64,000 bases of DNA from NCBI RefSeq assembly GCF_000003815.2, contig NC_049979.1:30508859-30572858 (forward strand). Reading direction: 5' to 3'. This DNA comes from Branchiostoma floridae (Eukaryota; Chordata; Leptocardii; Amphioxiformes; Branchiostomatidae). This document shows, piece after piece, positions 17,230 through 54,075 of the stretch. The notes under the pieces were generated by a model, which worked only from the letters and a program-made list of their open reading frames with translations, searched no databases and was not told the DNA's origin. Position 1 is the stretch's first letter. Each line of letters begins with the position of its first letter. The translations under genes and the position numbers were made by a program.

Positions 17230-17968
17230 ATTGCGGCGGAGCGCGCCTTCATTTTGCCGTAACCATAATTGCTAAGGTTAGGGCTATAGTGTCTTAAGGC
17301 ATCAAACTTGGTATGATTAGAAAGGTCTTTTGGTGGGTACTTGTAATCTGAAATCCGTTTTGAAATTGCGTTCTCTGTTGCGGAGATATGAGTGTTCAAT
17401 CCCTAACCCTAATTGCTAGGGTTAGGGTTAGGGTTACGGTAAGGGCTAGGGTTAGGGTAAGGGCTAGGGGTAGGGTATACATTGTATTCAAGGCGGTCAA
17501 ACTTGGTATGATTAGAAAGGTCTTTTAGTGGATACTTGTAATCTGAAATCCGTTTTGAAATTGCGTCCTTTGTTGCGGAGATATGAGTTTTTAATCCGCT
17601 CCCCTAACCCTAATTGCTAGGGTTAGGGTTAGGGCTAGGGTTACGGTAAGGGCTAGGGTTAGGGTATACATTGTATTCAAGGCGGTCAAACTTGGTATGA
17701 TTAGAAAGGTCTTTTAGTGGGTACTTGTAATCTGAAATCCGTTTTGAAATTGCGTTCTCTGTTGCGGAGATATGAGTGTTTAATCCCTTAGTTCCCCTAA
17801 CCTAATTGGTAGGGTTTGGGCTAGGGTTACGGAAAGGGCTAGGGTTAGGGTAAACATTGTATTCAAGGCGGTCAAACTTGGTATGATTAGAAAGGTCTTT
17901 TGGTGGGTACTTGTAATCTGAAATCCGTTTTGAAATTGCGTTCTCTGTTGCGGAGATATTAGTGTTAA
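17230..17968. repeat. satellite array with telomere-like TTAGGG blocks (about 186-195-bp units)
   Basis: Four units are marked by CAAACTTGGTATGATTAG at about 17303, 17498, 17687 and 17873 (spacings 195, 189 and 186 bp). Each unit contains TTGCGGAGATATGAGTG and a block of CCCTAACCC/TAGGGTTAGGG repeats with TAATTGCTAGGG. The array resumes at 58979-59044, immediately beyond the outer transposon, showing that the transposon inserted into the array. Confidence 0.85.
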
Positions 17969-18000
17969 GGTAGGGTCTCAGGGTGGCTGAGGGGTTCTGA
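17969..18000 (+). repeat. left 32-bp TIR of the outer transposon
   Basis: Perfect reverse complement of 58947-58978; beyond 18000 the similarity stops. It is preceded by TTAA at 17965-17968. Confidence 0.95.
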
Positions 18001-21988: not shown

Positions 21989-22386
21989 GAAAATTCAGGT
22001 CCAGGTCCGGTTCAGGTCCAAAGGATCAGGTCCAGGTCCGGACCTGAACCTGGACCTGATGCAGTATGACTCATACCAATGGTCCATTTCACTACAAAGG
22101 AATCTGTTTGGTGGAGTATTAGACTTACACTGGCGTTTCAAAATCCTACAACGCTAACTGCACCAGTACGATTGGTTGTAAAACTTGGTATAATTATTAC
22201 TATAAACTCTACACTACTTCACTCTTGTTATTTTCTTCCACCTGCAAGCCAGCTTAAGCTATTTATCTCATTCTTTTAGCTCAAAATAGTATTTCTCATG
22301 AATAGCGTGATAATTACAAAACATGTGATAGCGATAAGAAAAAAACTTTGTCTTATTTTTTCGCCAAAGGATTTTCAGTCTTCTTC

Positions 22387-23110
22387 TGAAGAATTAATGT
22401 GATGGCAACCCCCTTATCACATTAATTCTCCATAGAGATATCTAATTCTTATATGGAGAATTAATGTGTTAGCAACCCCCTTATCACATTAATTCTCCAT
22501 AGAGATATACAGGTTCTTATATGGAGAATTAATGTGATAGCAACCCCCTTATCACATTAATTCTCCATAGAGAGATTCCACAATAATTTTATGGAGAATT
22601 AATGTGATAGCAACCCCCTTATCACATTAATTCTCCATAGAGATATCCAGGATTCTTATATGGAGAATTAATGTGATAGCAACCCCCTTATCACATTAAT
22701 TCTCCATAGAGCGATTCCACAATTCTTATATGGAGAATTAATGTGATAGCAACCCCCTTATCACATTAATTCTCCATAGAGATATCCAGGATTCTTATAT
22801 GGAGAATTAATGTGATAGCAACCCCTTATCACATTAATTCTCCATAGAGAGTTTCCACAATTCTTATATGGAGAATTAATGTGATAGCAGCCCCCTTATC
22901 ACATTAATTCTCCATAGAGAGATTTAATGATTCTTATATGGAGAATTAATGTGATAGCAACCCCCTTATCACATTAATTCTCCATAGAGAGATTCCACAA
23001 TTCTTATATGGAGAATTAATGTGATAGCAACCCCCTTATCACATTAATTCTCCAAAGAAAGATCCAGTACTCATCTACTGGAGTATTAATGTGATAGCAA
23101 CCCCCTTATA
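22387..23110 (+). repeat. left subterminal hairpin array (10 complete units plus a half)
   Basis: Each unit of about 62-71 bp contains a hairpin with 17-bp arms, TGGAGAATTAATGTGAT and ATCACATTAATTCTCCA, around the loop AGCAACCCCCTT, followed by a spacer such as TAGAGATATCCAGGATTC. Ten complete hairpins and a final half unit are visible. Arms and loop are far better conserved than spacers. The same hairpin occurs in reverse orientation at 53401-54075. The function is unknown; transposase binding or end processing is inference. Confidence 0.92.
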
Positions 23111-26130: not shown

Positions 26131-28860
26131 TGAAGGACAAGAAATATGAAACATTTTATTGTAATATGTACTTTATTACTCTCTCAGGTTATGAAAAAAG
26201 TTTTATTTTCATGAAACATTTTTGTGAAAACATTTAACAAACTGTCCACAATTTCTGAAAACATTAATCCTACAACTTTCTACATATTTCTAGTTTTCTA
26301 AGTTGATCATACAGCTATATGCAACAGAGGTAACATCTGTAAGATGGAACCAGACCACTTTGTACCTTCTCATTACAGATCTAAGACATATATCAAGAAT
26401 GCTTATATGTTATTTCCTTGCATGTGCACATCCAAAGTTTGTCAGCATGCAACCTCTGTTCACAATATACTTGCAGGTTTGGTACATTTCTGCTTTCATG
26501 GAAAAAGTTCACAGAAATATTCCAGGTGAATCACGTGTATCATCACATCATGTGTTATTACTGTACAACAACCCTTACATATTATGTACATCGAAATCAT
26601 CTACTGAGTGATAATGTTTATTTGCTTCATCAGAGTAGGATAAGTTCTGGTGTCACATGTACAGGTACATTATGGCATTATGTCAGCAACTACTTGTATC
26701 ACCATCTGTCCAGTATACAGCCTGCGTATTATTCCATTGTTGCATTACAACTATACTGAGGTGTGCTCAGCCACAAAGTGCCCCCACGACCACCCCCGGT
26801 CAAGGGACCGGTAAGCGGTAACTATACTGAGTTGACAGCCAAATGTGACATCTTCTAATGTCTACACTTTCTAATGAATATAGATGTAGAAGAAGAGAGA
26901 CTAGTGACATGCTAGAATGATTTATAAAGATGTTTACACTACTGTAGGCCTTCTTGTGGTACAAGTTCAATATAGAATCAAGAAGGAATCAGAAAATTGG
27001 CAACACCAAATGTACATCTATTCTTGAATAAGAATGCAAATGTTGGAGGGTGTGGTTTCATACAGATATGGGTTCATTCATGTTTTGAGTTGTGTTGTAT
27101 CACTTAACTAAGAAATATGTAGAAATTTTCATTGATCTGCTACCTAGCATTATGGTATATGTATAGTGCTATTGCTTCTGACAGTAACTTAGTTGTGTTT
27201 CTACTTTCTCCCTTTGTTTGGACCTTTGACCTAAATGCCAGGGGATTGCTGAAGATTATTATTATTCCTTTCTTTGACCTTTTCTTTACTGTCTTTTTTG
27301 TATTGATGCAGATAATATTCTAGATTGCTCTGCTCAAGACAAATTACACCATTTGACCACTGTCATAGAATCGATGAAAAAATTCAAAACAATGTCTGCT
27401 TTGGTTAGAGAGTTTGTTTGTCTTAACAACATGTACATAATTGTGCAACATTAGTGCAAATATATTTTTTTGCAAAGTTCATTTCCTACTGACAAGGAAC
27501 AACAAAACCCCACAAGAAAACATACCCATTAATTGATCAAGCAATTTTTCGGCATGTTTGGTTGTTTTGAAGTTGCCGAAGCAATACAAAGAAAATACAT
27601 ACATTGATGTTCTTTCCAGGCCAAAGATGTTAATGTGTCAAAAAATGTTGACTATGCCTCTATACATCTGTCAAATGAAAATACTCATCTCCTGAGGAAA
27701 TGATAGGGTGCATTTTCCTAAATTGCACTTAATCATCATCACAGCTCCTAAATAAAATACTGTGCCACTTAGCTTACACTGGTGATAATGACAACCTTAC
27801 TCATATGGTATCAGTAATTATATTTTATTATCATATGGCCAGGGGACATGGACCAATCAGAAGGCCTCATTTCATGTAAGTTGTGATACCGTAACAGATG
27901 GAAAATTATACAAATGAACTCGACAAACTGGAGCAGGCGCAGGTGGATAAAACTATGGAGTGTGCAACAGTTTGTAACATAATAAATCGACTTTGTTATT
28001 TTTTATGCTTGAAGTTGAAGCATACAGATTCCCAAAAGAAAAGAAAAGAAGATTAAATCATGTAGAACAAATAACAAATTTGATTAACTGTCTTCTATTA
28101 GACCAAAACCTATTTCTTTGCAACAAAAATAAATAGTTCTGTAAGTTAGTTATTCTACCTAAAGGGAAATACCCTGTAGCAAAAAAAGATGCTTTTAATG
28201 TGTCTAACTTCTAAGTGTAGAATCTGAGATGAATTTCAATATCAATCAAACTTCAGAGTGAGGAAAAAAACTTGAGATTTCCATCTTAACATGTTACCTA
28301 ATTATAGACACAGAACTCAACTTGCCTTCACAAAAACACTTCGTTCAAATGCTTTATCAAGGTTAGTGTGCAAACATTCATTTTAGGCTTTTCAAGTAGC
28401 AAAACAAAAGGCAAATTAGCTTTTATTTAAGCTTCACTGACAGTTCTCTTGCATGGAAATAATTCACTTGACACATTGATTCAATAACACCTTTGACATT
28501 CAGTACAACAAAATGCAACCTAATCACCTGAAACTTGGCATAGGAGTGCCCTGGACATATACAGACGCAGATTTAATAACACTTTGCCATGCAGTACAAA
28601 AAGACTTGATTTTGTAATTTGATTGTAAATTGTCAGAAACTTTTGTGGTCACGATTTGTCTCCTTGAAGTTTAACACTCTCCTTGCTTTTTGTACAATTT
28701 ACACTAAAAACACCTGACTGTACACAACATTTTTAACTTTGTCTATTATGTGTTAAATTTTTTGCACAGGGACGATTGTGCAGCACTGTTGCTTGGGGAA
28801 GGAGGTGGAGTGAAATATTCTGTATTTGCACATAAGCAAATGTCAGCCTACATGTATCTA
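26131..28860. other. noncoding interior of the giant element downstream of the large gene
   Basis: AT-rich sequence without a supported gene. At 28784-28850 there is a copy of a dispersed repeat (GTTGCTTGGGGAAGGAGGTGG) also found near 41955-42120 and partly at 46430-46460. This stretch lies between the LINE fragment and the end of the large minus-strand gene. Confidence 0.45.
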
Positions 28861-28862
28861 GT

Positions 28863-28868
28863 TTTATT
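28863..28868 (-). promoter_or_regulatory. poly(A) signal of the large cargo gene
   Basis: AATAAA on the minus strand about 30 bp beyond the TAA stop (28899-28897). The very short 3' untranslated region supports this as the true gene end. Confidence 0.55.
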
Positions 28869-28896
28869 TTAACAGTCTAAATAAAAACTGTCAACC

Positions 28897-31800
28897 TTAT
28901 TCCTTACTCTCAAAAGCCATTTCAATGTCTTTGAATTCAGTCAACAAACAGAATCGTTTAGCAGTTGAACATGTTTTGATTTTAACATTATTCGCAATGA
29001 CAGTTTCAATACGTTCATTGGAAGTATCCTTTGTTAGTCTGTATATATTTGATTTTAGACTTACTTTTTGTAACCAGTGCACATTTATATTACCATTCTC
29101 TTGATCGACTTGAAGAATTTTCACTACTGCAAAACCAGCATTATTCTTGTTGTAGTTCTCATCATCATACCTTAAAAGTGCATATTCACCTGCTTTGATA
29201 GAGTCATGACCAAGTCTAAAGTTATCATCTGTATACAATCTTTCTGTCATTGCTTCTTCAACTGATGTTGGTTTGACAACATGGATGTGACACAGAACAT
29301 TTTTTCTCCAACTGTGAGTCAAATTAGGTGTGATTCTGTGATTTACCATTATTTGATCTGACAATGACTTGATTGTATAGATACCATTAATGGTTGATGT
29401 ATTGTCAGGTGGTGACAAAATGACATGGAGAATAACTGGCTTTGAAAAATCATTTTTCCATACCTTTGAAGTAAGCACACTGGCACGCAGGAACCAAGCG
29501 TCATTATTGAAACCATCTTGCACAAAAAAAACAATCTCTCTACATTCCACACCATTCACTTCTGCCTCACAAAGAAGTTTTAATGTTGTGTACAATTGTG
29601 ATGCTGTCTTTAAACTATACTTGACATTTGGGGTAACATCATTGCTTGTAGTTGTACATGAAAAGTCCAAGGCTGAGGACTTGTATTCCTCCCACTCTTC
29701 CAAAGACACTGTAACATTATCATTTTCATCGCGAGAAATTGCATCAAAAGGTTTCAAACTGGTGAAAAATGAATCAAATGAATCTGGGTCGACTGAATTT
29801 GCGACAATTTCAAAGTCATTTTCATGTAAGATTTCTTTATTAGTACCTTTACATTCAGTGCCTATGAAAAGTCTGTTTAAGTCTTCTGAACATGGTGCTT
29901 TAGCTTTGCAAGACATATATTTTTGCTTGATTTTATCTTTTAATGCCTTCATGAAAGGTGCCGAGTATTCCTTGTGTTTCAGGTACAAATCATGCCGTTT
30001 TTGCGCCCTTAACTTTTTATTTCCTCTTCGTCCCCATTTAGACCTGGGCGTGTCATCCTCAATTTCTACATTAGACTGAGTTTTTGAGGTTTGTTCGCCT
30101 TTTTGTGTGCCTGCAGAACATGACTCATTGCCTTCTTCCATTAATACTGATGCTTTGCAATGATCTAATACTTTGCTTATTTTTTTGTTAGTTATGTTGT
30201 GTCTTTTAGCTCTGATTGGTAACTGCTCGCTTTGGAAGTCATTAAAAAGTCTTAGATTTAGTTCTGTTCTTCGTAGGTAAGAATTATATATAGGTTCATC
30301 TAGATATTTGTAATTTACACTTTGTTTATCTGAATAGATATTCTTTATCAAATTGTGCCAAGACTCTTGTTCAGCTGGTCCCCCGTGTTTTGGGTGTACG
30401 TCACTTCTGCCAAATGCACAAACAGTTTCGGGGTTATCGAAATATTTAGAAAACTTCTTTATAACACTACGTGAGACATGTTTTGATAAGTTGGTAACAC
30501 TGAATTTTTTTATTTCCTCCGCAATAACTTTAGCTGTCAGAGCATCTGAAGAATCTAAAAATTGTTTCCACATCTCCCACAGCAAAGCATGAAATTTTTC
30601 CTCTCCTACTGTTGTGAAAGTAGTATTTAGAAAAGTTTCTATGGTGTTGTTAACATGTGAAAGTTCAACAATGCGAGATGCATAAGGAAAGTTTTCTCTT
30701 GCGGCCTTCCACTCTGCTGGGTCTGCATCAAGTTTCACCAAATTAGGCTGTACTTTATCTCCCCTTCCCCTCATTTTTTCACAATATTTCAAGAATGTAT
30801 TAATGCCTTTACTTATAGAAAATGCTGTGTTGTCATTGAGAGTGTAAATTTCACAGACAGGGTATTTAGCAGTTGGGTATGAATCTCCCCTGATGATATC
30901 AACATCAACATGTAATGACCACACCTGGATTTTATGGCCATCAACAAAATGGCCATAACCTGTGCCATCAATTTGTAGAACATTGTGACCAAATAGGTTA
31001 TATAGTTTAACAGCAACGAAATCGGTGCAAACTGCAAGGATACCCATTCCCCCATTGAGGTATTCTAATGATACTATATATGATTTATGGAGGCCTACCC
31101 GCTTCTTAGCGTCATAGGTTTGGGCTTTCTTGCTCCTTTCTTCGTTAAGTTTTGACAAGTAATGAAGCAGAGCTTCTACACGATGGTATTCTTTCCTTAT
31201 AGGACTTTCGTCTGACATGTGTTGAACATCTTTCAAGTAGGGGTATGTTTCCTCGGTTTCTTTTGTTCTGTCATGTCGACTTTCTGAATACCTAAGATTT
31301 TCTCTTCCACTAACATAGGATATGGGATTGTTATGAAAAGCCTCTCTATTATTTCGAAGGAATTTCTGAGCAGGTTTTGTTACTGACGGCGTCTTCCGTT
31401 TTATTTGTAAATGGCCTTCTGTTTCATTGATGTGTACATCACACTGCAACCCCTTCCTTCCTCTGTTGCGTTGTGGTAGAGCACCATATAAGTGTCTGTG
31501 CCTCCTAGTTTTGCTCGTTATGGTCTCTCTGAAACGTATCTTAATTGCTGAATTATCATCTTTGACCGTGCCACAAGCCAACCATGTTTTGGTAACATTG
31601 CATCCGGTATTGAAATTACCACACCTAAACCTTGCACTTACTCCCTTTCCATTATGCAACAACTGATGTGATCTAAAGCTACTTCCATTAGAATGCCACA
31701 ATACAGTGTTATCATTTAAGTGAAACTCAGAGAAATAAGTGGTCCACTGAGACTTAAAACAAAGGTTATCAGTATCAACCGCAGAAGTAAATGTATCCCA

Positions 31801-33501
31801 ACTCATATCAAAATATCTACCTTCATCAGGAATCGGGTCATCACAGTCGAAACAAAAATCTCCCCTTGGAATTTTGTAATCAAGGGCACATGTCCAAAAC
31901 TCTTGGGAAAGTCCACTTTCCCTACTGGATGTGTCCAGTGCTCTTTCAATCGATTCTTCTGTGTCAACTGTGATCAAGTTGGGAGATAATATATTACTAC
32001 TTTTAGCAAGGGCAATGTCAGAGTCTGACATCTTTTTACATTTTGATGAAGATGGTTCCACTGTATCAGATGTATTGTTTCTTTTCCTTCCCCGTTTGTC
32101 TTTCTGTCCAAATGTACCTCCATAGATAGGTCGTTTGGGGATTAGAATCTTCTCTGATGTATTACTAGCTATAGTTAGGCATCCATCTGTAGTCAGATCC
32201 AAAAATGATCTCCCCCTGTCCGTTACTTTATAATGGATGTTTCTTAAACCATCTTCAAAGTTAATGTACTCAGGAATTAGGTCATTAAACAATACACCGA
32301 GAAACTGTGTTTTCTTTCCTTTCAGAATCCCATGACTTTGCAGTGATGAGAACTTTGTCTTAACTTTAGTTTTGAGTTTTTCTGAAGTAAAACCTTTAGC
32401 AATTTCCAATATAGTTGTTTTGCTCTTGAAGCGACCTAACTCTTCAACAGTAAGCAGTAACTTTGATGCCATATCAGTGACGTTGACAAAGTCATCTTCA
32501 TTCCTATTGGATATACAACAGTTATCACAACTCATTTCACACTTTTCACCTAATTGGGATATATATTGTCCAAAATGTTTGAGCAAAAATTTCCACCGGC
32601 ATTCTTTGACGTGACAGTATTGTAAGACTTTAATTTGACATGTCATCATTTCATCTTTTGCTTTAAAATCCGCCTCCGTATATCTGTTGTTGGCAAATCG
32701 TTTTACATCAGCATCACCATAAAACAAAACACAATCCGCTACATTATCATCTTGTCTCGCAGCCCGACCTATGCCCTGCATGTAAACTTCCATTGATTCA
32801 GGCACTTCATAGTGTATTATGAGGGTCACATTAGGAATATCTATTCCTACACATAATGATTTTGTTGCTGCGATTACTTTAACCTCTTCAGAGCATATAA
32901 AAGACATGGAAGCTAACTTATCCTCTACTTGCCCATGGAAAACAGCAGGACAAATGTCATACATTTCTTCCATTTCACGGGCAAATGCATTTAAAGTTTG
33001 AATGAGGTCAAAAAATACAATGGTCTTTCCAGACGTATCTTCTATCATGGATTTTACCATGCTACAATTTTTTTTCAGTTCACTACCAGATTGCACAGAA
33101 AGTTTCAGTTCCGGGCGAAACATCGGTATTGTGCTTACAACTGGATGCCGTAAACCTGCCATGTCTATCACCTGGCTAATGTCACCGTTAGGAGGTGTTG
33201 CAGATAATGCCACACGGGGTATCTCTGGATGTTGATCCAGGACAGATTTCACCACATTGAACAAAGGTCTAAATTTATTCCATTGGTTGTGACAGTGAAC
33301 TTCTTCCAACACAAATAAACAAATTTCCTTTCGTTTCTTTATTTGAGGAAGTTCATTTTCAAATGCAACAAATTTTTCAGGAGTTAGATAAACAACATTA
33401 TACTTTCCTTCCTTCACCTTAGCTTCAACACTAAAGTCTTTTTGGGCTGACCCAAGAAAGCAGGCTGAAAGGCGCTGTGGAAGATGAAGATTACTTACAC
33501 T
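28897..33501 (-). CDS. cargo gene last exon, part 2: RecQ core, zinc finger and DDE transposase-like domain
   Basis: Open for about 1,530 codons after the frameshift. Counting from the ORF methionine at 33417: VLEEVHC (DExH box, 36-42), ALSATPP (70-76), TKSLCVGIDIPNV (185-197) and GIGRAARQ (motif VI, 215-222) are the RecQ motifs. C-R-x-K-F-L-L-K-HFG followed by CEMSCDNC is the RecQ zinc site, and 310-405 a winged helix. RCGNFNTGC...RRHRHLYG (599-644) is a WRKY/FLYWCH-like finger. LQIDGTGYGHF (Asp 817), VKLDADPAEW (Asp 897) and GGPAEQESWHNLIKN (Glu 1016 or 1018) fit a MULE-like DDE core. The last 350 residues are unassigned. Ends TAA at 28899-28897. Confidence 0.85.
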   Translation of the reverse strand, partial: SVSNLHLPQRLSACFLGSAQKDFSVEAKVKEGKYNVVYLTPEKFVAFENELPQIKKRKEICLFVLEEVHCHNQWNKFRPLFNVVKSVLDQHPEIPRVALSATPPNGDISQVIDMAGLRHPVVSTIPMFRPELKLSVQSGSELKKNCSMVKSMIEDTSGKTIVFFDLIQTLNAFAREMEEMYDICPAVFHGQVEDKLASMSFICSEEVKVIAATKSLCVGIDIPNVTLIIHYEVPESMEVYMQGIGRAARQDDNVADCVLFYGDADVKRFANNRYTEADFKAKDEMMTCQIKVLQYCHVKECRWKFLLKHFGQYISQLGEKCEMSCDNCCISNRNEDDFVNVTDMASKLLLTVEELGRFKSKTTILEIAKGFTSEKLKTKVKTKFSSLQSHGILKGKKTQFLGVLFNDLIPEYINFEDGLRNIHYKVTDRGRSFLDLTTDGCLTIASNTSEKILIPKRPIYGGTFGQKDKRGRKRNNTSDTVEPSSSKCKKMSDSDIALAKSSNILSPNLITVDTEESIERALDTSSRESGLSQEFWTCALDYKIPRGDFCFDCDDPIPDEGRYFDMSWDTFTSAVDTDNLCFKSQWTTYFSEFHLNDNTVLWHSNGSSFRSHQLLHNGKGVSARFRCGNFNTGCNVTKTWLACGTVKDDNSAIKIRFRETITSKTRRHRHLYGALPQRNRGRKGLQCDVHINETEGHLQIKRKTPSVTKPAQKFLRNNREAFHNNPISYVSGRENLRYSESRHDRTKETEETYPYLKDVQHMSDESPIRKEYHRVEALLHYLSKLNEERSKKAQTYDAKKRVGLHKSYIVSLEYLNGGMGILAVCTDFVAVKLYNLFGHNVLQIDGTGYGHFVDGHKIQVWSLHVDVDIIRGDSYPTAKYPVCEIYTLNDNTAFSISKGINTFLKYCEKMRGRGDKVQPNLVKLDADPAEWKAARENFPYASRIVELSHVNNTIETFLNTTFTTVGEEKFHALLWEMWKQFLDSSDALTAKVIAEEIKKFSVTNLSKHVSRSVIKKFSKYFDNPETVCAFGRSDVHPKHGGPAEQESWHNLIKNIYSDKQSVNYKYLDEPIYNSYLRRTELNLRLFNDFQSEQLPIRAKRHNITNKKISKVLDHCKASVLMEEGNESCSAGTQKGEQTSKTQSNVEIEDDTPRSKWGRRGNKKLRAQKRHDLYLKHKEYSAPFMKALKDKIKQKYMSCKAKAPCSEDLNRLFIGTECKGTNKEILHENDFEIVANSVDPDSFDSFFTSLKPFDAISRDENDNVTVSLEEWEEYKSSALDFSCTTTSNDVTPNVKYSLKTASQLYTTLKLLCEAEVNGVECREIVFFVQDGFNNDAWFLRASVLTSKVWKNDFSKPVILHVILSPPDNTSTINGIYTIKSLSDQIMVNHRITPNLTHSWRKNVLCHIHVVKPTSVEEAMTERLYTDDNFRLGHDSIKAGEYALLRYDDENYNKNNAGFAVVKILQVDQENGNINVHWLQKVSLKSNIYRLTKDTSNERIETVIANNVKIKTCSTAKRFCLLTEFKDIEMAFESKE

Positions 33502-36500
33502 GGTCTATCATTAGTGATATGGTAGGAGTTATGACAAAGACTATTTTATTGTTGAGAAATGAAAAGAATTTATGAATATGCCCCTTGCCTGCTCCAGTTG
33601 GCCAGTACATGTAACAATCTCTCCTGTCAATAAGGCACTGAATAACTTCTAACTGTCCTCGTTTAAAAGAATCATATCCAAAGAACTGTTTGTTGAGCCT
33701 TTGATATTTTTGCATTGTTGCAGATTCTATCGATAAAGGTTCGCTCAGGGTGTCTGTTAAAGTTAGTATAACTTCATCTTTACCTGGGTGTTTGACTTCT
33801 ATACTCGACAATGTGTTTTCCTGTACCAGTAATTCTGACTCACAAAGCCCCCCATTATCTGTTTTATCTCGGTCATTGTTAATTTGTGTACTTGTCCTTT
33901 CCTTAGGATTCTGAAGAGCTTGACAAAGCTCTTCATCTGATATAAAGCTCTCAAACCCTGAAGGTTGGATGACCCAATACTGTTGCCAAGAACTCTCAGT
34001 ATTTAAATTCATACGGGAAAACAACCATTCAATAAATTCTAACAGCTGCTCTTGTATGTTTTCTCGTGTCACCTTCTGTACAATTAAAACACCTTCCCCT
34101 TTACCCCCATGCTGAGAACTGACTTTATGTGTGTCAATGTAAACTACTTTCCAGGTTTCCTCTGAGACAGCTAAAATTGAAAGGCAGCATGAGTAGGGCT
34201 CACACTGATAAATGCCCAGAGTTGTTTTTCCAGTTGAGATTAAAAGACCTTTCATAGTATTGAACATGGCCATCTTTGCGGCTTGGACATCTGTGCCTTC
34301 ATTGATATTTAGCTGAAGTTCCGCCTTATATTCAACGGGTAATTGCCCGCTCCTTGCCAAAAGGTCAAGAGCTTCATCAACACTGTAGAAATTGCCTGAC
34401 TCTCTATAATTATTGAATGTAGCAGGAGCACAAATAATTTTGTCACAGATCTCAAAAGCAAGTTCTTTTAAAGACATTTCATTGATTCTACAGAAGCCAT
34501 CAAGGGTAATAGCTAACAGTGCTGCAAGAATGGTGCAAGCATTTGTAGCAGTGAATGTTGTTAAAAGCTTTTCAGCACTTTCTTCTGATGGATTCTTTAC
34601 CAACTTGATCACTTCTTGCCATATGTTGGCATTTCGTGTTATGTATGATGGCAGTGACTCTATCATAAATCTTTCAGCAATCCCCTGGTGATGAGCAATC
34701 ATGATATTGCTGATTATCTCCTCTAAGCTACTTTGACTACAGGACAAATCAGTGACTTTGAGTTTCATGTCTTTGTCAATACGATACTTGTTGGTTATAA
34801 CATTTCCTGTCTGTTGCTTTGATACAGTAGATACTTCATCCAAAATATCAGTAGATACTTCATCTAAGATACCAGTAGATACCCCATCTAAGATACTGGT
34901 AGATACTTCATCTGAAATACCAGAAGGGACTTCATCTGAAGAACCAGTAGGGACTTCATCTGAAATACCAGTAGATACCCCATCTAAGATACTGGTAGAT
35001 ACTATATCTGAAGAACCAGTAGGGACTTCATCTAAAATATCAGTAGATACCCCATCTAAGATACTGGTAGATACTATATCTGAAGAACCAGTAGGGACTT
35101 CATCTAAAATATCAGTAGATACTTCATCTAAGATACCAGTAGATACCCCATCTAAAATACTGGTAGATACTTCATCTGAAATACCAGTAGATACTTCATC
35201 TGAAATACCAGTAGGGACTTCATCTGAAATACCAGTAGGGACTTCATCTGAAATACCAGTAGGGACTTCATCTGAAATACCAGTAGGGACTTCATCTGAA
35301 ATGCCAACAGAAGTAGAAATTTCAACCGGGATATGTCCTGTAGAAACATTGTCTACATTAGAACCATTGTCTACCAAACTTACAGTAGAAGTGGAAATTT
35401 CATCCAAGATACATTTCATTGTTGTAACCACCTGTTCAGAGTTTGGTCTTTTGGTAGGACATTGATCCCACCCTTCCTTTATCAACTTGTAGAGTTGGTC
35501 TTTCACTGTGCTGGTTATTCCATAAATTTCGTCTGGCAATAAAGGCCTACTCCCATTTTGGGCTTTTTCAGGAATGAAAATAGGTCTATTAACCACACCT
35601 TCCCACGGATGCATTCTTTCCGGACAGAGTACTTCAACAAAATATATTGATAAGCTATAGATGTCGCTTGCCTTTGTAGGTAGGACTGGTGATGAGTTTG
35701 CTGTTGTTTCTTGGGTCTCTGGAGCTGCAAAGCACAGTGTTCCTCTGCACTTCCTACTGGAATCTTGTGATGACATGCTTGACCCAATACTCATACCAGC
35801 GTTGTACAGAGCTTGCCCAAAGTCTGCAATCTAGTATGGAATAATGTACAATGATGTTTGATGTGATGTATAATGATAAGCAGTCACTTTTCACTTGTGG
35901 TGGTATTGGTGGTTCATGTCCCTAAATATACAACCAGTACAAAACAGCCACACAACTGACTCATACACATAAGTAATAAAGCTTCACAAAACAATACAAT
36001 TATTGTTCTCAAATGTTTGTTGAGTAGAAGACCAGCCATAGGAAAAACATCGTAAGCATCACCACCGTTTTTTTTTACCCAGGGAGTTAAGGTGGCAGAC
36101 GAGCGTTCGCCCCAAAGATTTGTTACACGACAAAAACACGACCTGAGTTGTGATAGATTCAGCCCTCCTAGCGGGAGACAAGAAACATACACAATCACAA
36201 TTCTACTGTCAAAAGAAAGCTAATATATCATAGAATTAGAATTTTCATTCATGTTTATCTAAATTGGTCACCAGCTTCCGAAGAGAGCAAATTACAAAAG
36301 CGTGTCAAGTTAGGGCGCACTGTCTAACGCAGCTCAAAATCGGAAGTTATATTCACGATAACGTCCACAGCGTTTGCCTGTTGTAACACGGAGGGTGAAG
36401 TGTTCATGAACCATATGAATTCATTCCTTATCCAAGTATAGTTTTTAGATGAATGTGTTTTAAAGATTCATTGATCAAAACATGACCACTCTTTGGCAAC

Positions 36501-39500
36501 TAGTGATGGAGCGCCATGAGTTTGAGCACGTAAAAAAGCGTAGCATCTTAGAGCAACCCCCGTTATATTTGACAGAGTTACTGCCAAAAAAAATCAACAG
36601 CTGCTACTTACCTTCACAACTATATCGTCTAGGGCCTTGGTACCTCCAAGAAGAAAGTTGGCACTTTTCACATCACAATGTATGATGTTGTGTTGATGAA
36701 GATAATCCAATCCCTCTGATGACTGTTTCATAATTTTTGCTCGAATGGACCATGGAAGTTCGTCACCTATTTGTTTAAGAAGTCCATCCACGGAATGGAG
36801 GACATGAGTTTCCCCTTCGATATCTACTTGCTTTTCAAGGTATTCCAACACAATGTTTGTACCAAAAACCCCAATGAATTTAACAACATTCTTGTGGTCT
36901 AAATCTCTGAATGCTTTTTCTTCATTTTTAATGTATCTTTTGACTCGTTTGGGGATTTGTCCAGCAAAAGATTTTATGGCAACAGCTTGACCATTGTAAA
37001 TGCCTTTGTAAACAAAACAGCTTTGTCCATTTGCAAAGGGGGGACTTTTCTTGTACAATCCAGGTGACAATTCTTCCATCACATCCCCTCCACATTGCAA
37101 GTTTATTCGCTTTTTGAAACCTGTGAGATAAGGAAATGGATGACAATAAATGGCAAAATCCTACTTAAAACATAAATATTTCAAGTTCAAACAAAACATA
37201 AAGAGCAAGGGAAAACAAACCAATAACATTGTTAAGAAGAAAGGCTCAACATGACACCGGACAATTTGGGGTGTGTTACTTTTTGATCATTTCTTCTGAA
37301 AGTATGGTATTATGTCACTAGTTTTATCATTAATTTCTTCATACAAAACAGCTTTTACCATGAAAAAACTAGCATACTTATTGAGTAAAAAACAAGTTAA
37401 GTTGGCATGAAACATATAGTCACAGACTGATTGGTTTATGTATAATTGTATTAACGAGTCAATAACTTACCATGTCGGAACTTTCTTTTTGACTGCTTTA
37501 CTTTTGTCCTTTTCCCCAACCCGTCATCAGCTATTTCCTGTAGTTGCAAGAGTTGATTTATACCTAATTAGCAACGAAATGCATGTTATGCACCATAGTA
37601 AAGACTTAGCATATAAAGGAAATGGGTAATTATTAAGCGGAGTATTCAGGTTATTATTGATGATAAAAAATTATACATTAATAAGACAGAATCTGATACG
37701 GATATATAGTGGGTTGACAGACACCCTAAGGCTGTCTGTACTGAATTTGATATTCATGTGGCCAACGTCTGAGCTTTACAATGAGAGAAGTGGGTAAATT
37801 CTGAAAGAATCCTGAACATGCACGTAAATGGCATTAACCAATTATTCTTCCTGATGTGGAATCTATGCACTATTTACGCTTTCGTTATATATTTAATATT
37901 GCACCACAAGTTGTACATACATGTAGTGGGTGTAACATCTTTATTCATCTACTTATAATATATATATATATAGTTGAAAATAATGAAATGACATGTAAGC
38001 AGAACCAGACATGTGTGTAACATTACCTCTGTTTGTTTTTTTCTGATCCCTCTTGAAGTTCTCTTGCCCTTGAAGGGACTCCTTGTAGTAGCCCCGACAT
38101 CTCCCCTTTCATCTGTGCCAACATCTCTTTTCTGTTGACAGTCATATGTTTTGGACAAGGTTTTAAAAAATTGTGCATTACAACTGTACTTTCCGTGATC
38201 TCCTGTTAAGGAAAACCCTTGAACAGGAAGAAGATAGAGTAATCACCACCCGATCTACTGAGAAAACTGTTCAGGTAGAATGCATGCATCTCATGTAACA
38301 TATTCAATCAGTCAATGTGAGCACAGGGATATCAAAAGATTAGCAATTACATGTATCCATTCAAGATGGAAACAGTTTTGACCTCAGACGCTACAACGAA
38401 AATTTGGACTTTTTTAGAAAATACCAGGGAGTTCATTTGAGCTAACCTACTTGCTGTTGATATCTATTAAGACTATTGGTGATGTAACTTAAGTCCGAAA
38501 AGGTGGTGTGAAAGAAAGCGAGTCAGTACATACCTCCAATGATGGTATATGAAGATGGTAGGATGGCTGCCTACTGCACAGCTTGCTTCTCTTTCCTCTT
38601 TTCTTTGTTGTGTGCTTGGTTGTGTTCAGATAAGGTAGGATCTCTTGCTGTGTACAACAATATCAACATTTATTTTTTTTATTACACTGTACAATAAGGT
38701 TGCTGTGGTGTAATCAGAAGGTTGTGGCTTAAATTACTGTTTAAAAAACACAAAAGAAGGCTTAAGATCTAATATGTGGTCAAAAAGGGCTCTCCCCCCC
38801 CCCAAAAAAAAAAACACTCACCCCCCGTGTGAGGTCATCAACCCTTTCAGTCTGGTCTTTGTTTTGAAGCAATCATTTAAGAATTATCAGTACTTCACCT
38901 GCAAATGCATGATACTACCTACATGTATTTTCATATATACAAGTCTTTACCTCTTCTTCCCTCAGTACATTGAAAATGTTTGGTGTTGTTGGGATCTCAA
39001 GGCAGCCACAGAAGCTGGAGACTGTCTGCACATCTTCAGGAAGACAGTGTGTATACAGGCTGTCTTCCCACCAGTTGTCTGTGGTGCTGTCTCCCAACAC
39101 ATGTATAGGTGCCTCGGGGCTGTGAGTGACACTGGGACGGTGTTGAATCTGAAATCGATAACAAATAGGTTCAGAATAAGTATCATATATAGCAATTCTC
39201 CTATCATACTCTTCATAGACATTTCTTTTAATTCAAATCCATACAAATGTATGTACATGTATGACGACAGGCATTGAGTCAAAGTGGTATTAGACCATAC
39301 ATGTACTAATACCTGTCATGATGAAATATCTATGGTGTGTCTATAACTCAATAATGACAATGACTGGTTGTACTTCACACACTGCGTGTGGTGGTGTTGC
39401 TGTTGCAGTCTTACATGTAGAAAAGGTCCCAAAGTCAAAGTATCTACCTGGCTCCGATGTGAAGCAATACCTTAAGCCCAAGACTGTCACCTAAACTAGG

Positions 39501-42500
39501 CTGTTGTAGATACATTTGTACCTGAGTGTATAAAGAGCAATACTATTCAGATATCTATAACCTAATGAGATTTATAACCTAATGACATTAAAAATTAGAG
39601 CAGGGCAATTAAACCATGATTGTCCCAATGGCTCAATTCTTCGCTACACCAATCACTCCCAAACGTTGCAGTCCATCTCATATTGGTACAACTGCTATAG
39701 GCTAACGGTTTTCCCTCGGACCATCAGAGAGTGGAATGAACTTGAGCCTGGTGTGGCGGAGGCAGGGTCTCTCTCCCAGGTCAAAACTGAACTGGGTAGG
39801 AACCTGCTGCGTTGAGCCAACCCCACACTTTCTCGACATATGTAATACTAGCACACTTACATATGTAATTCACTTGTCCTGTCAATTGCACACACGAAAT
39901 CAGTTATTCTAACTTCCTTAGCATTTTTCTTTTATTTTCCCTTATCTATTTGTACTGGATGTTTGTTTTGTGACTAACCCATGCGCAACTGTCAGGAGGC
40001 TAGCTAGGCAACTGCAGCACAAAAGGAAAAGCGCTGTCATGACCTATCAGTTATCAATAGTTTTTGACATTACCTTCTCATCAATCCCCAAGCTGACAAA
40101 ATGGGTTTCTGATATGTGTCCCAGTAGGATGGGACGTCCAATATCCCTCCTGGGAGACATCCATGACGGTTGTATTTTGGTGAGGTACTCATCTCGCAAA
40201 GTCTACAGTACAACAAACAAACAAACAAGAACACAATGAATAAATGCACTTTGATAACCATGATCATATTAACTTGACATGATTCAATGTCTGTGTATGT
40301 GTTATTAACAAGACAATGTCAACTCTACATAGTACATTAAAAAACCCAAACTGTTGTCCCAAGAGTGTCAATTAAAGGAATATGCAGATGAAATTTTAAA
40401 AAATTACCGAAGAGCTCCTGACGATGAGGATGGACACCTGAAATGTGTTCGCCAGAGCACAAAGGGTGAGATGGTCACCCCATTCTCCATTTCTTGCCAT
40501 CTTAAGCAAGTATTGATCCCAGTCTTCTGCGACAAACTCCGTCCAATCAACTCCAGAACCGGGCTATAGAAATGATAATTTGGAAGTGATATTATCAAGT
40601 TATGTTTTAATGGCTAGGGTACTGTGGTGTAACGCTAGTTCACCTTTATCCGTTGGGTAACCTATATCCGTTGCTTTTAAAAACAGGGTATTTGGGATAT
40701 CACACCTACGGACGTTAGTTCCAAATTGCCAAGTTTTTAGGATATTGCAGTTTAAAACTACCACCCGTCGACTTGATGTGCCTAAATACCTTGTTTTTAA
40801 AAAGCAACGGATATTGGTTACCCAACGAATAAAGGTGAACTAGCGTTACATGGCTTCATTACTATAGTTTATTTTCTAGCTATATTTCCTCTACAATCAC
40901 TTTGTTCAGAATGTGGTTAACAATCTAAAGATGATTCCTTGTTTTAGACAAAAAAAACTATAAGATGGCATTAGCTATTAAAACAGTAATTAAAGGGGAA
41001 AGAAATAAACACGAGTAAAACATGATTATGCCACACCAATTTAATTTTTTGGTTCATATATTCAGACAAAAATATAGCAAGAGGACCTCCTAAAACTAGA
41101 TGGTAGGGAGGAAAACTTGAATATGACTGTATTCACCCCATAAAGCACCACTAAAAAGGCACAAACCTGGTCCTCATGCTTTGTTTTCATTATGTTTTTC
41201 CAGTGAAGCATATTTTTTTATTGTGTTTTTAGTTTTTTAAATCCGTGAACCAACAAATTAAATTGGTGTGGCCTAATATGATATTAAAAAGAAAAAAAAA
41301 GAAAAAGAATAGACTCACCAACCGACGATTGGCTCTTAGATATGAGACTGCCATCTCTCTTACATGCTTGACTGTCAAGCTGCCTCTCACTTTGCCGAGC
41401 AGTTTCAGTTGGTCGGCAAATGCTGCGAATTGGCAGTTCCCATCTCCTAGGATTCCATTCCTCACCACCATATTCTCCTGGCGAAGGTTAGCCAGTAGCT
41501 GCCTCAGGTGCGCATCATAGCTTGGTTCAGCTGTTGAATTAAAAATCCACATTACATCCTTTTTACATTGGTTTACGTTTAGCATTTCTGGTCAAAACCC
41601 AGTTTGTATGGACGAGAAAACATTAAATCTATCTGCTTTTCTAGTGAAACTTTATACTTTTCTAGGATTGGACTGATAAGTCAGAACAACAACATGATAT
41701 GCTTTTTTATTGAAACTACATGTAGTTATTTCACTCCACCATCCTTCTAAAGTGATGTATGCCAAAATTGCGGAAAAAAAACTCTGCAGGCATATGGCAC
41801 AGGCATTTCCATAGCAGCTTTCAGGTCATTTGGCTCCATAGTAGAGGAGCCAGAAAGAAGAAAAAAACTTAAAACTTTTCAAGTGATGTATAAAAACAGC
41901 GTTGAATAGCCCCACATGCATATGTCCAAAGAGGGGCCATTGTGCGGCATTGTTGCTTGGGGAAGTCTGTGTAACATAAACTCCGCTGTCCAGGGCTGTA
42001 ACTGGCCCTCCTTCTTCTTGGGTGCGGCAATGTAGTACGTGCCAATAAGAAGCGCAATTAAATCAGGCTGGGGAAGGAGGTGGAGTAAAATATTGGTATA
42101 TTTGCTCATAAGCAAATATCCCTGCCTTTCTAGTTGCTAATTACTTACATTTTGGGGCCGACTACTTTTGAGCATAACCACACCTACCCCACCAACTTAT
42201 TGCCTGCTACTGCAGTGCTAGACCTCTACTTTTAATATTTTGGACAACCCCGCCATGGGAAACTTGAAAATGCCAGGAACATGACAGAACAAGGGCTTTT
42301 AATAAAGATGATAAGATGTAAGCTGCTGTTGGTATTCACTAGAATTGTATTGCCATGATCCTCTGTGGAGACTGCCAAAAATTGTAAAGAAGAACACGTT
42401 AAATTTCATCTGGTAATTCTGGTTTGTATTTATATTCTAGGCCGCACCATTTTAATTTCTTGGTTCTCGGATTTTTTCAGAAAAATATTGGGGGTCGGTC

Positions 42501-43044
42501 GGGCAAAAAAAATAAAATAAAATTTTGCAAAAAGTCTGGGGTGAACATATGAGGCTTATATAACACAAAAAAACAAGGTCAGTAGGTACAATCTTTTTAT
42601 TTGATACCACTGTTCTGAATAAAGGGAATTGTTCTTATATTGAAATTATGTGTGTTGCATTTACTCATTTTCAAATACTACTATTACCATAATGTAAACC
42701 CATATGATTTTTCTTGGGACAATTTTTTTTCCAAATCGTTAAAAAATGTGTCGGGAAATCTGAGAACCAAGAAATTAAATTGGTGTGGCGCTAATTATAC
42801 AATAAAGCACAATCTTAAAAGAATCCTGCTTGGTGTTACCTTGTATATAACGTTTAAATCATACTCAAGACTGATAGTGATATAGTTAACACGTTACTTC
42901 CCCACCATTAGTTATAGCAGAATATATGTAACATTTTATACCTAAGCTATTGATGACATTCCTATGGTGTCTCACTGACATGTGCTGCTTCAGCATGAAG
43001 AGGGTGGGGAACATACTGCCACAAACATCACACAGGCTCGAATC
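28897..43044 (-). CDS. giant multidomain cargo gene: ZnF-OTU-kinase-RecQ-DDE
   Basis: A chain of minus-strand exons: 43044-42942, 41530-41319, 40563-40408, 40202-40074, 39148-38951, 38647-38534, 38202-38027, 37563-37471, 37120-36612 and 35830-28897. Junction phases agree throughout except between 38027 (phase 2) and 37563 (needs phase 1), where an exon is probably missed or two genes abut. The last exon has a one-base frameshift near 33500. Domains in order: C2H2 finger, OTU protease, basic linkers, protein kinase, 8-residue repeats, possible second cysteine peptidase, RecQ helicase with RQC, WRKY/FLYWCH-like finger, MULE-like DDE, unassigned C-terminus. I know of no family with this order. 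Upstream exons probably exist towards 53 kb. Confidence 0.7.
33491..35830 (-). CDS. cargo gene last exon, part 1: kinase C-lobe, repeats, peptidase-like domain, helicase start
   Basis: The acceptor CATACTAG|ATT opens with IADFGQA (DFG motif). Then come RGTLCFAAPE (APE motif), DIYSLSIYF and GWDQCPTKRP, completing the kinase. Counting residues from MSIG at 35794: 20 tandem 8-residue repeats at about 165-324; a domain at about 345-640 with NACTILAALLA (Cys 420) and YIDTHK...GGKGEGVLIV (His 556), which resembles papain-like peptidases with a Cys block and a D-x-H block (weak inference); and the RecQ start with FFGYDSFKRGQ (motif 0), YWPTGAGKG (Walker A) and SLMIDQ. A premature TAA at 33493-33491 follows a one-base frameshift. 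Confidence 0.85.
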   Translation of the reverse strand: MADFGQALYNAGMSIGSSMSSQDSSRKCRGTLCFAAPETQETTANSSPVLPTKASDIYSLSIYFVEVLCPERMHPWEGVVNRPIFIPEKAQNGSRPLLPDEIYGITSTVKDQLYKLIKEGWDQCPTKRPNSEQVVTTMKCILDEISTSTVSLVDNGSNVDNVSTGHIPVEISTSVGISDEVPTGISDEVPTGISDEVPTGISDEVPTGISDEVSTGISDEVSTSILDGVSTGILDEVSTDILDEVPTGSSDIVSTSILDGVSTDILDEVPTGSSDIVSTSILDGVSTGISDEVPTGSSDEVPSGISDEVSTSILDGVSTGILDEVSTDILDEVSTVSKQQTGNVITNKYRIDKDMKLKVTDLSCSQSSLEEIISNIMIAHHQGIAERFMIESLPSYITRNANIWQEVIKLVKNPSEESAEKLLTTFTATNACTILAALLAITLDGFCRINEMSLKELAFEICDKIICAPATFNNYRESGNFYSVDEALDLLARSGQLPVEYKAELQLNINEGTDVQAAKMAMFNTMKGLLISTGKTTLGIYQCEPYSCCLSILAVSEETWKVVYIDTHKVSSQHGGKGEGVLIVQKVTRENIQEQLLEFIEWLFSRMNLNTESSWQQYWVIQPSGFESFISDEELCQALQNPKERTSTQINNDRDKTDNGGLCESELLVQENTLSSIEVKHPGKDEVILTLTDTLSEPLSIESATMQKYQRLNKQFFGYDSFKRGQLEVIQCLIDRRDCYMYWPTGAGKGHIHKFFSFLNNKIVFVITPTISLMIDQCK
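33493..33502 (-). other. single-base frameshift in the RecQ helicase
   Basis: The upstream frame reads SLMIDQ then Cys-Lys-stop. Skipping one base at about 33499 continues as VSNLHLPQRLSACFLGSAQK, which has the same spacing as E. coli RecQ between DQ and the following Ser-containing motif (13 residues). A 24-base intron (GTAAGT...CACAG) would give the wrong frame, and a 34-base one would delete conserved residues, so a frameshift or base error is the better reading. Confidence 0.85.
34818..35310 (-). repeat. in-frame 24-bp coding tandem repeat (20 units)
   Basis: Twenty 8-residue units with consensus ISDEVPTG and variants such as ILDGVSTG and SSDIVSTS. All units are whole multiples of three bases, so the frame is preserved. 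The long plus-strand frame across this stretch is a shadow of the repeat. Confidence 0.9.
36378..36555. repeat. dispersed repeat, second copy at 51165-51350
   Basis: The two copies share TTGTAACACGGAGG, GTTCATGAACC/GTTCATAAACC, TTATCCAAGTAT, CTCT(T/C)TG(G/A)CAACTA and AGCGCCA in the same order and orientation. This copy lies in the kinase intron of the cargo gene. Confidence 0.65.
36612..37120 (-). CDS. cargo gene exon: protein kinase N-lobe to catalytic loop
   Basis: 169 codons. The glycine loop is degenerate (NGQSCFVYKG), VAIKSF carries the ATP-binding Lys, EEKAFRDLDHKNVVKFIG the helix-C Glu, and HCDVKSANFLL the catalytic Asp and metal-binding Asn (HCD in place of HRD). The exon ends ...DDIVVK|GTAAGT in phase 0, directly before the DFG motif in the next exon. 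The fold looks like a TKL/RIPK-type Ser/Thr kinase; substrate unknown. Confidence 0.85.
37471..37563 (-). CDS. cargo gene exon preceding the kinase
   Basis: About 31 codons between GCTAATTAG|GTATAA and GACATG|GTAAGT, reading INQLLQLQEIADDGLGKRTK then KQSKRKFRH. Only the frame entered with two bases is open, and its exit phase matches the kinase exon exactly. Confidence 0.6.
38027..38202 (-). CDS. cargo gene exon: charged linker, phase uncertain
   Basis: In phase with its 5' neighbour the exon reads EITESTVVMHNFLKPCPKH... and KEMLAQMKGEMSGLLQG, exiting at CAGAG|GTAATG in phase 2. A second frame is also open (HGKYSCNAQFF...), entered from an alternative acceptor 17 bases upstream. Neither frame exits in the phase needed by the 37563-37471 exon, so another exon or an alternative splice must lie between, or the gene divides here. 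Confidence 0.45.
38534..38647 (-). CDS. cargo gene exon: short basic linker
   Basis: 38 codons between TACACAG|CAAGAG and GGAG|GTATGT, rich in Lys/Arg (KHTTKKRGKRSK), a possible nuclear localisation signal. Phase 0 on both sides; only this frame is open. Confidence 0.55.
38951..39148 (-). CDS. cargo gene exon: linker after the OTU domain
   Basis: 66 codons, phase 0 in and out (GATTTCAG|ATT and GAAGAG|GTAAAG). It contains HVLGDSTTDNWWEDSLYTHC and SSFCGCLEIPTTPNIFNVL. I recognise no domain. The acceptor and donor are good and the phases match both neighbours. Confidence 0.6.
39582..39815 (+). mobile_element. LINE ORF2 C-terminal fragment
   Basis: The 77-codon plus-strand frame ends with YRLTVFPRTIREWNELEPGV, matching the widespread YxNSFFPRTIxxWN-LP tail of Jockey/CR1-like LINE proteins, and stops after LGRNLLR. 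It lies antisense in an intron of the cargo gene. Upstream domains are missing. Confidence 0.75.
40074..40202 (-). CDS. cargo gene exon: OTU protease C-terminal part with catalytic His
   Basis: 43 codons ending GRPILLGHISETHFVSLG. The ETHFVSL block matches the final OTU strand, where the catalytic His is usually H-Y/F. With the preceding two exons this completes the Asp/Cys...His set, so the protease looks intact. Confidence 0.8.
40408..40563 (-). CDS. cargo gene exon: OTU protease middle part
   Basis: 52 codons between TTCTATAG|CCC and TTCG|GTAATT. It reads W-x-E-F ... EDWDQYLLKMARNGEWGDHL, then TLCALANTFQVSILIV. The WGD-H-x-x-L-x-A-x-A block and the following beta strand are characteristic of OTU domains. 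Phase 0 on both sides. Confidence 0.85.
40629..40850. mobile_element. MITE with TIRs of about 65 bp
   Basis: TGTAACGCTAGTTCACCTTT and AAAGGTGAACTAGCGTTACA are exact inverted termini; the arms continue with CCGTTGGGTAACC / GGTTACCCAACG and GCTTTTAAAAACAGGGTATTT / AAATACCTTGTTTTTAAAAAGC (in pieces). It lies in the intron upstream of the 40563 exon. Confidence 0.88.
41033..41275. mobile_element. MITE, family A copy 1
   Basis: The termini are GCCACACCAATTTAATTTTT and AAATTAAATTGGTGTGGC, then TGGTTCA / TGAACCA. A second member of the same family lies at 42441-42791. Confidence 0.8.
41319..41530 (-). CDS. cargo gene exon: OTU protease N-terminal part with catalytic Cys
   Basis: The exon carries GILGDGNCQFAAFADQL, the OTU signature (GDGNC-x-F-x-A-x-x-D-x-L) with the catalytic Asp and Cys. 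OTU proteins hydrolyse ubiquitin or ubiquitin-like conjugates. It exits after NRRL|GTGAGT in phase 0. The frame runs on into a poly-Phe string only because intron sequence is pyrimidine/purine biased. Confidence 0.85.
41940..42125. repeat. dispersed repeat with GTTGCTTGGGGAAG and CTGTGTAACA blocks
   Basis: It shares GTTGCTTGGGGAAG and the GGAGGTGGAGT...CATAAGCAAAT block with 28784-28850, and GTCTGTGTAACA(T/C)AAACTC(T/C)GCTGTCC with 46340 and (inverted) 47215-47250. An old interspersed element, internal structure unclear. Confidence 0.55.
42441..42791. mobile_element. MITE, family A copy 2
   Basis: The termini are GCCGCACCATTTTAATTTCT and GAAATTAAATTGGTGTGGC, followed inward by TTGGTTCTCGGATTT / AAATCTGAGAACCAA. 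Confidence 0.8.
42942..43044 (-). CDS. cargo gene exon: C2H2 zinc finger
   Basis: CCAATAG|GATTCG acceptor and TTAG|GTATAA donor bound 34 codons with CDVCGSMFPTLFMLKQHMSVRH, a C-X2-C-X12-H-X4-H finger (cited by pattern; the key residues are the two Cys of CDVC and the His of QH and RH). It ends in phase 1 and joins the OTU exon to complete an Ala codon. Nucleic-acid binding is the likely role. Confidence 0.7.
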
Positions 43045-53400: not shown

Positions 53401-54075
53401 GAATTAATTCTCCAGTAGAAGAAACCTGGATCTCTCTTTGGAGAATTAATGTGATAAGGGGGTTGCTATCACATTAATTCTCCATATAAGGATCCAGGAA
53501 TCTCTCTTTGGAGAATTAATGTGATAAGGGGGTTGCTATCACATTAATTCTCCATGTATCATTGAATCTCTCTATGAAGAATTAATGTGATAAGGGGGTT
53601 GCTATCACATTAATTCTCCATATAAGAAAGTGGAATCTCTCTATGGAGAATTAATGTGATAAGGGGGTTGCTATCACATTAATTCTCCATATAAGAATGT
53701 GGAATCTCTCTATGGAGAATTAATGTGATAAGGGGGTTGCTATCACATTAATTCTCCATATAAGAATCCTGGATATCTCTATGGAGAATTAATGTGATAA
53801 GGGTGTTGCTATCACATTAATTCTCCATATAAGAAACCTGGATCTCTCTTTGGAGAATTAATGTGATAAGGGGGTTGCTATCACATTAATTCTCCATATA
53901 AGAATTGTGGAATCACTCTATGGAGAATTAATGTGATAAGGGGGTTGCTATCACATTAATTCTCCATATAAGAACCTGTATATCTCTATGGAGAATTAAT
54001 GTGATAAGGGGGTTGCTATCACATTAATTCTCCAGTATAAGATACTAAAACCTCTCAATTGGTGAATTAATGCGA
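53401..54075 (-). repeat. right subterminal hairpin array (9 complete units plus degenerate ends)
   Basis: Same hairpin as the left array but inverted: the loop reads AAGGGGGTTGCT. Nine complete units are flanked by a half unit (GAATTAATTCTCCA at 53401) and a degenerate last unit near 54056-54075. One loop has GGGTG in place of GGGGG, and one arm has GAAGAATT. The array ends about 265 bp from the right terminus. Confidence 0.92.

Follow-up and report, generated by a model that had tools for sequence, protein, structure and literature searches.

Gene content and borders of the element

The window analyzed here is a 64,000-nucleotide stretch of Branchiostoma floridae contig C1 (C1:30508859-30572858). 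Exons for a C2H2 finger, an OTU protease, a protein kinase, a RecQ helicase module, a C..C..HxH finger and a D/D/E transposase domain lie on its minus strand, and the unit that holds them is a DNA transposon, not an ordinary host gene. The features, in window coordinates, are as follows.

22243-22250: left target-site duplication (TSD), TGCAAGCC
22251-54175: the complete transposon (31,925 bp), with its A end on the left and its B end on the right, defined by alignment of its ends with related elements and by an 8-bp TSD on both sides
22251-22390, plus strand: A-end terminal inverted repeat, starting AGCTTAAGCTATTTATCTCATTC; its match to the B end is imperfect
22377-23100, plus strand: left array of ~70-nt hairpin units, one of which has a folding energy of -18 kcal/mol (z -7.7)
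28897-30147, minus strand: C-terminal region; identity to B. lanceolatum is 61%, and no family scores above its cut-off
30148-31977, minus strand: C..C..HxH finger and D/D/E transposase domain, 71% identical to B. lanceolatum
31978-33474, minus strand: RecQ core, zinc-binding and RQC region (EEVH, SAT, GRAARQ, CDNC)
33475-33504, minus strand: frame break inside RecQ, between two long open frames
33497-35830, minus strand: exon with kinase C-lobe (DFG, APE), linker with a 24-nt coding minisatellite, conserved domain and N-terminal RecQ part (PTGAGKG)
33911-34762, minus strand: the conserved domain, 51% identical in B. lanceolatum
36612-37120, minus strand: kinase N-lobe exon (VAIK, HCD), with an in-frame ATG before ELSPGLYKK
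40074-40202, minus strand: OTU exon 3 (ETHF, presumed catalytic His), ends in phase 0, outside the Pfam match
40408-40563, minus strand: OTU exon 2 (EWGDH)
41319-41530, minus strand: OTU exon 1 (GDGNCQF, catalytic Cys)
42942-43044, minus strand: C2H2 zinc-finger exon, ends in phase 1
53403-54048, minus strand: right array of ~70-nt hairpin units, inverted (one unit, z -9.0)
54036-54175, minus strand: B-end terminal inverted repeat, starting AGATCTGATTATTTATCACATTC on the minus strand
54176-54183: right TSD, TGCAAGCC

Related elements were sought in the genome assembly (513,431,437 bases in 431 contigs), and 14 records were examined: the window, 11 single loci and two records pieced together from several stretches. 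When 12 A and 8 B ends were aligned, the borders came out sharp. Both ends are present in eight of the 14 records, the window element included, each with one A and one B; one end only was seen in the other six. An exact 8-bp TSD accompanies seven of the eight two-ended elements, and the eighth sits in poly-A. The element thus has the inverted repeats at both ends and the duplication of fixed length that define a terminal inverted repeat (TIR) DNA transposon.

The hairpin arrays at the two ends mirror each other. Arms of 258 nt in the right array are 97% complementary to the left array, and the ~70-nt unit is itself near-palindromic. Allowing up to three mismatches, the unit matched the genome 186 times in forward and 228 times in reverse orientation, against 0 for a reversed control (positions were listed for the first of these matches). 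Arrays of both orientations were found in eight of the 14 records, with plus always left and minus always right, and a single orientation in six. An Rfam search of 22000-54500 returned no match, and the interior of the element contains no open frame above 250 codons other than those of the main gene.

Exon structure and domain assignments

An earlier note on this DNA had read all of these motifs as parts of one minus-strand gene chain. Reading of the frames and Pfam profiles bore out the motifs, their strand and their places. Profile searches segment by segment, which the note had proposed, identified the kinase, OTU and RecQ parts, scored the C2H2 part below its cut-off, and left the second finger and the D/D/E region unmatched. 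The stretch 28897-33504 stays open in one frame for 1535 codons, whereas 300 dinucleotide-matched random sequences contained no frame longer than 189.

The two halves of the kinase were located by Pfam in frames 33491-35830 and 36594-37160, and the spliced sequence scored 105.1 bits for Pkinase over both exons. With this profile match and its VAIK, H-x-D, DFG and APE motifs, the domain is assigned as a protein kinase. Pfam OTU halves lie in frames 41229-41591 and 40396-40563 and score 49.1 bits once exons 1 and 2 are spliced. Because splicing at GT-AG sites raises the profile scores, the kinase join and the join of OTU exons 1 and 2 are supported. The assignment as an OTU cysteine protease combines the profile with a catalytic Cys in exon 1 and a His in exon 3 that lies beyond the profile match. 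This ETHF His is presumed to be catalytic from its motif and from a one-frame OTU relative on C7, which shows 43% in its alignment with residues 28-160 of the query built from all three exons. The C2H2 part is a single weak finger, with a Pfam score of 19.2 bits against a cut-off of 25.2 (frame 42886-43044).

Four joins are in phase, namely C2H2 to OTU exon 1, OTU exon 1 to 2, OTU exon 2 to 3 and the kinase exon pair. OTU exon 3 ends in phase 0, whereas the best kinase acceptor, a strong one, needs phase 1; with another, weaker acceptor at 37160 the phase would be right. This mismatch agrees with the note's remark that phases were compatible at all but one junction. The single six-domain chain that it proposed held in part. 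The fusion of kinase C-lobe, RecQ and DDE is supported by the same order in B. lanceolatum, whereas the phase misfit speaks against joining the C2H2 and OTU exons to it. The window copy itself does not read as one continuous chain, with the RecQ halves in different frames and the OTU exon 3 phase at odds with the kinase acceptor. From these joins, the C2H2 and OTU exons appear somewhat likelier to form a second gene of the same element than to be part of the kinase protein.

The linker that follows the kinase contains a 24-nt in-frame minisatellite (34753-35383) encoding GISDEVPT-like repeats, with 22% identity to B. lanceolatum. The conserved domain downstream of it is possibly cysteine-peptidase-like, judged by eye from its NAC... 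and IDTH... motifs. Its AlphaFold2 model had a mean pLDDT of 47.3, and a Foldseek search with this low-confidence model gave no match at E <= 0.001. For the transposase the mean pLDDT was 31.7, a model unusable for recognizing an RNase-H fold. The low values probably arose because each of the two alignments held two sequences.

The RecQ module and its frame break

Helicase_C, DEAD, RQC and RecQ_Zn_bind all scored above their Pfam cut-offs in the window frame 28897-33504. The same set of DEAD, Helicase_C, zinc-binding and RQC parts identifies a RecQ domain in a B. lanceolatum homologue, P0001, where RQC is below the cut-off and TIGR00614 scores 243.6 bits against a cut-off of 219.8.

Compared with solved RecQ and WRN structures, two motifs of the ATPase site are changed in both species: Walker A reads GKG, not GK[S/T], and Walker B reads EE[V/A]H, not DE-x-H (window 33601-33581 and 33306-33295). 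Walker A is likewise GKG in a relict copy, L012 (C6:28.01 Mb). Both of the changed residues ordinarily bind Mg2+. DNA unwinding driven by RecQ, as the earlier note had supposed, is therefore doubtful, since both Mg2+-binding ATPase residues are changed in both species. The module may instead bind DNA or ATP without ordinary turnover. That both residues are altered and yet conserved in a RecQ core is an oddity open to direct test.

Where the frame breaks, positions 33491-33504 are shared by both long frames. The flanking conserved residues are separated by only 22 nt, compared with ten residues in P0001. The relict L012, although broken elsewhere, reads contiguously across the same point, so the break is either peculiar to the window copy or an assembly error. 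Because of the break, the window copy may not make a whole protein. A 24-nt intron at 33475-33498 was considered as its cause and dropped, as it would be very short and joins out of frame.

A homologue in a second amphioxus species

P0001, a predicted B. lanceolatum protein of 2280 aa, was the closest protein found, with 67% identity over the transposase region. It is colinear with window positions 35755-33494 and 33498-28900, running in the same order from the kinase C-lobe through the conserved domain, RecQ, finger and DDE to the C-terminus. Identity is 62% in the kinase C-lobe, 22% in the repeat linker, 51% in the conserved domain, 68% in the N-terminal RecQ part, 67% in the RecQ core, 55% in the RQC region, 65% in the finger, 75% (74.8%) in the DDE domain, which is the best-conserved part, and 61% in the C-terminus. 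Neither the finger residues (C-x6-C followed by HxH) nor the D/D/E residues differ between the two species.

Because P0001 keeps this order, the fusion from the kinase C-lobe to the C-terminus is supported, and the orthologous fusion that the earlier note had suggested looking for is thereby found for that portion. On the OTU and C2H2 exons P0001 is silent, since its model starts inside the kinase. Protein searches for further homologues returned P0001 alone for the transposase region, and P0001 with six helicase proteins for its first 800 residues. From B. belcheri there was one short fragment match (E 0.025, 5% of the query).

Copies and derivatives

A copy on contig C16 (7301986-7336868) matches the window element in long colinear pieces at 95.8-100% identity, mostly above 98%. 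Its OTU and C2H2 exons are preserved with 100% identity, and the parts of its kinase N-lobe exon on either side of a short N gap with 97-100%. Window bases 28130-36126, an 8.0-kb segment with the kinase C-lobe, RecQ and DDE, are missing from it; since its sequence runs on uninterrupted at the deletion point, an assembly gap does not explain the loss. By its content the C16 copy is a non-autonomous derivative. Amphioxus heterozygosity is given as 3.2-4.2% in the available part of one report (PMC12500494), so that, by this figure, most of the C16 pieces diverge less than two alleles might. Judged by this similarity, the family has moved recently.

Only one copy with long open frames was found in the genome, with the interior of a related element at C1:2.37 Mb being unassembled. 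This element (C1:2370501-2398500, loci L029-L031) has 15.3 kb of N within 2371678-2396607, in two large assembly gaps, and could be another copy of full length. At the other extreme is a 768-bp miniature element (L040, C2:13254298-13255065) with the same A and B ends and an exact TSD, GGATAGGT.

Affinities of the transposase and comparison with known elements

Searches of the finger and D/D/E regions against Pfam, NCBIfam and PHROGs models gave no meaningful match. The name 'WRKY-like' in the earlier note thus found no backing among the models tested, and, since no curated family matches, FLYWCH-like or WRKY-like describes a pattern seen by eye only. From its finger and D/D/E residues we infer that the protein is the transposase that would move the element ends.

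The D/D/E domain was compared with Mutator-like elements (MULEs) of the same genome, where PF10551 gave 27 matches, four of which were aligned for a profile. An hhalign comparison of the transposase with the MULEs gave an E value of 0.001 and a probability of 21.6% over 184 columns, with the second D, the H and the E in line; two other pairings were weaker (8.5% and 0.3%). When the four-MULE HMM was run on 3,005 sequences, 3,000 of them shuffles, the window transposase ranked 5th at 6.2 bits and the B. lanceolatum transposase 36th; four shuffles outscored the window transposase, the best at 14.0 bits. The 8-bp TSD is inside the MULE range of 8-11 bp. The DDE part would most likely be a very divergent MULE, with the comparisons suggestive only.

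Several known systems share single properties with the window element. In the accessible portion of a report on MULEs (PMC6446971), TSDs are 8-11 bp (8 bp in Spectre), some members have C2H2 or FLYWCH fingers, and MuDR-6_HM is recorded with an ovarian-tumour (OTU) gene. MULEs, Spectre, Phantom and MuDR-6_HM among them, resemble the window element in these points, and in the hhalign alignment the order of the second D, the H and the E agrees. They differ in that similarity to the transposase is weak and the window element is 32 kb long; moreover, 'helicase' and 'kinase' have 0 occurrences in the main text of that report, whereas the window element encodes both. Tm1, a Mutator/Foldback family of root-knot nematodes (PMC3169594), is similar in its composite terminal inverted repeats of tandem motifs, in its transposase-less members that share ends and in its FLYWCH-MULE transposase. 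It differs in its 9-bp TSD and in the transposase length of 496 aa, with no added enzymes in the accessible parts of the report. AcademH (Kojima 2020, via PMC10045372 and PMC10799480) likewise has a helicase and a transposase within one animal and fungal DNA transposon lineage, but its TSD is 9-10 bp, and fusions with RecQ, kinase or OTU go unmentioned in the available portions of these two sources. Helentrons, from the portion of PMC6431247 available, encode a large protein with a helicase and an OTU-like cysteine protease, but use a rolling-circle Rep protein, not a DDE transposase.

Among the titles and abstract openings surveyed in the open-access literature we found no description of an element that joins OTU, RecQ and kinase with a transposase, a scope within which absence is not proof.

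Interpretation

The earlier note's proposal of a mobile unit with kinase, RecQ and DDE fused gains support from the recurrence of the fusion in B. lanceolatum and from a whole unit with an 8-bp duplication. Neither this duplication nor the terminal repeats, the features that mark the locus as an element, figure in that note. The ends, the TSDs and the deleted derivatives show a cut-and-paste style of element whose members can be moved in trans. We consider it likely that the locus is a giant foldback-type cut-and-paste transposon, with a main gene in which kinase, conserved domain, RecQ, zinc finger, D/D/E transposase and C-terminal region are fused, which is an unusual set of enzymes for one protein.

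How much further the protein extends is a separate matter. One polyprotein with all six domains would fit the four in-phase joins, the acceptor at 37160 that would restore the remaining phase, and the placement of the domains on one strand, in order and, the deleted segment excepted, still linked in the C16 copy. It has to contend with the phase of OTU exon 3 against the strong kinase acceptor, an in-frame ATG ahead of the kinase and a B. lanceolatum model that starts within the kinase, and we rate it as possible, at somewhat less than even chances. Rather more doubtful, in our estimate, is a wider reading in which the element represents a new giant cut-and-paste superfamily, known so far only from Branchiostoma, in which one large protein would link a D/D/E recombinase to a kinase, a domain of unassigned fold and a RecQ-like clamp whose ATPase site is rewired, with a deubiquitinase added in the same or a second protein. 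If it were true, the transposon would bring its own tools for managing host DNA-damage signalling.

Other explanations detach the gene from the mobility of the element or place it in a known lineage. The ends also occur where the RecQ-DDE exons are lacking, in relatives of 0.8-7.4 kb and in the 34.9-kb C16 copy, so ends and gene are separable and the gene could be cargo in an element moved by another transposase. This is unlikely, as the gene has its own finger and D/D/E residues, its DDE domain is the best-conserved part, and the borders enclose no other open frame above 250 codons. About equally improbable is membership in AcademH, the helicase-encoding Academ lineage: there, too, a helicase and a transposase are found in an animal DNA transposon (PMC10045372, PMC10799480), but the TSD of 9 or 10 bp given in the accessible part of PMC10045372 does not agree with the 8 bp found here. 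Least probable of all is a domesticated host gene that chances to sit between repeat arrays. It would account for a B. lanceolatum homologue with 51-75% identity outside the repeat linker and for the single copy with long open frames here (the interior of the C1:2.37-Mb copy being unassembled), but exact ends and a TSD flank the gene, a near-identical copy of most of the unit lies on C16, and the frame of the window copy is broken.

For the foldback-type transposon, the parts suggest a working scheme. The finger and DDE domain would bind the hairpin units and the ends and then move the element. At these hairpin-rich ends the RecQ module could grip or remodel the DNA, perhaps with no ordinary turnover of ATP, while the kinase and OTU might change host phosphorylation and ubiquitin signals, in repair or silencing, during transposition. 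Modification of host proteins by kinase and OTU, also part of the earlier note, is an inference from the domain types.

Eukaryotic cut-and-paste transposons are usually short and simple. A 32-kb element with clear ends, recent mobility and a transposase fused to RecQ and kinase would offer a test case for hairpin-rich ends and host repair signals, and its internally deleted derivatives allow changes in size to be studied within one family.

Decayed relatives and other repeats

A genome search for relicts gave 32 matches, 22 of them outside the window with at least 40% identity. Contig C6, which makes up 5.5% of the assembly, carries 19 of these 22 (P 1.4e-21, a value that overstates the clustering because a single decayed copy accounts for several of the matches, which are thus not independent); 17 of the 19 lie at 19.7-28.0 Mb and two near 2.6 Mb. 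This count excludes nine matches outside the window with identity below 40%; host RecQ genes are included in these nine, and three of the nine lie on C6. Host RecQ genes were rejected as the source of the C6 matches, as their identity is 22-38% against 40-80% for most of the relict matches. Decayed relatives on C6 include, for example, loci L010-L014, L019-L028 and L048-L051.

Five of the 27 MULE-family matches (PF10551) are also on C6, and four of the 27 are at 26.3-27.3 Mb. Elsewhere, a MULE domain at C2:20560291-20560575 (L060) belongs to an open frame of 1384 aa that also has a region of acidic repeats, and a partner locus, L061 on C13, agrees with it as far as an assembly gap. Outside the element, the window also contains four tandem copies of a ~190-nt unit at 17234-17972 and a large 43-nt tandem array at 61341-63000.
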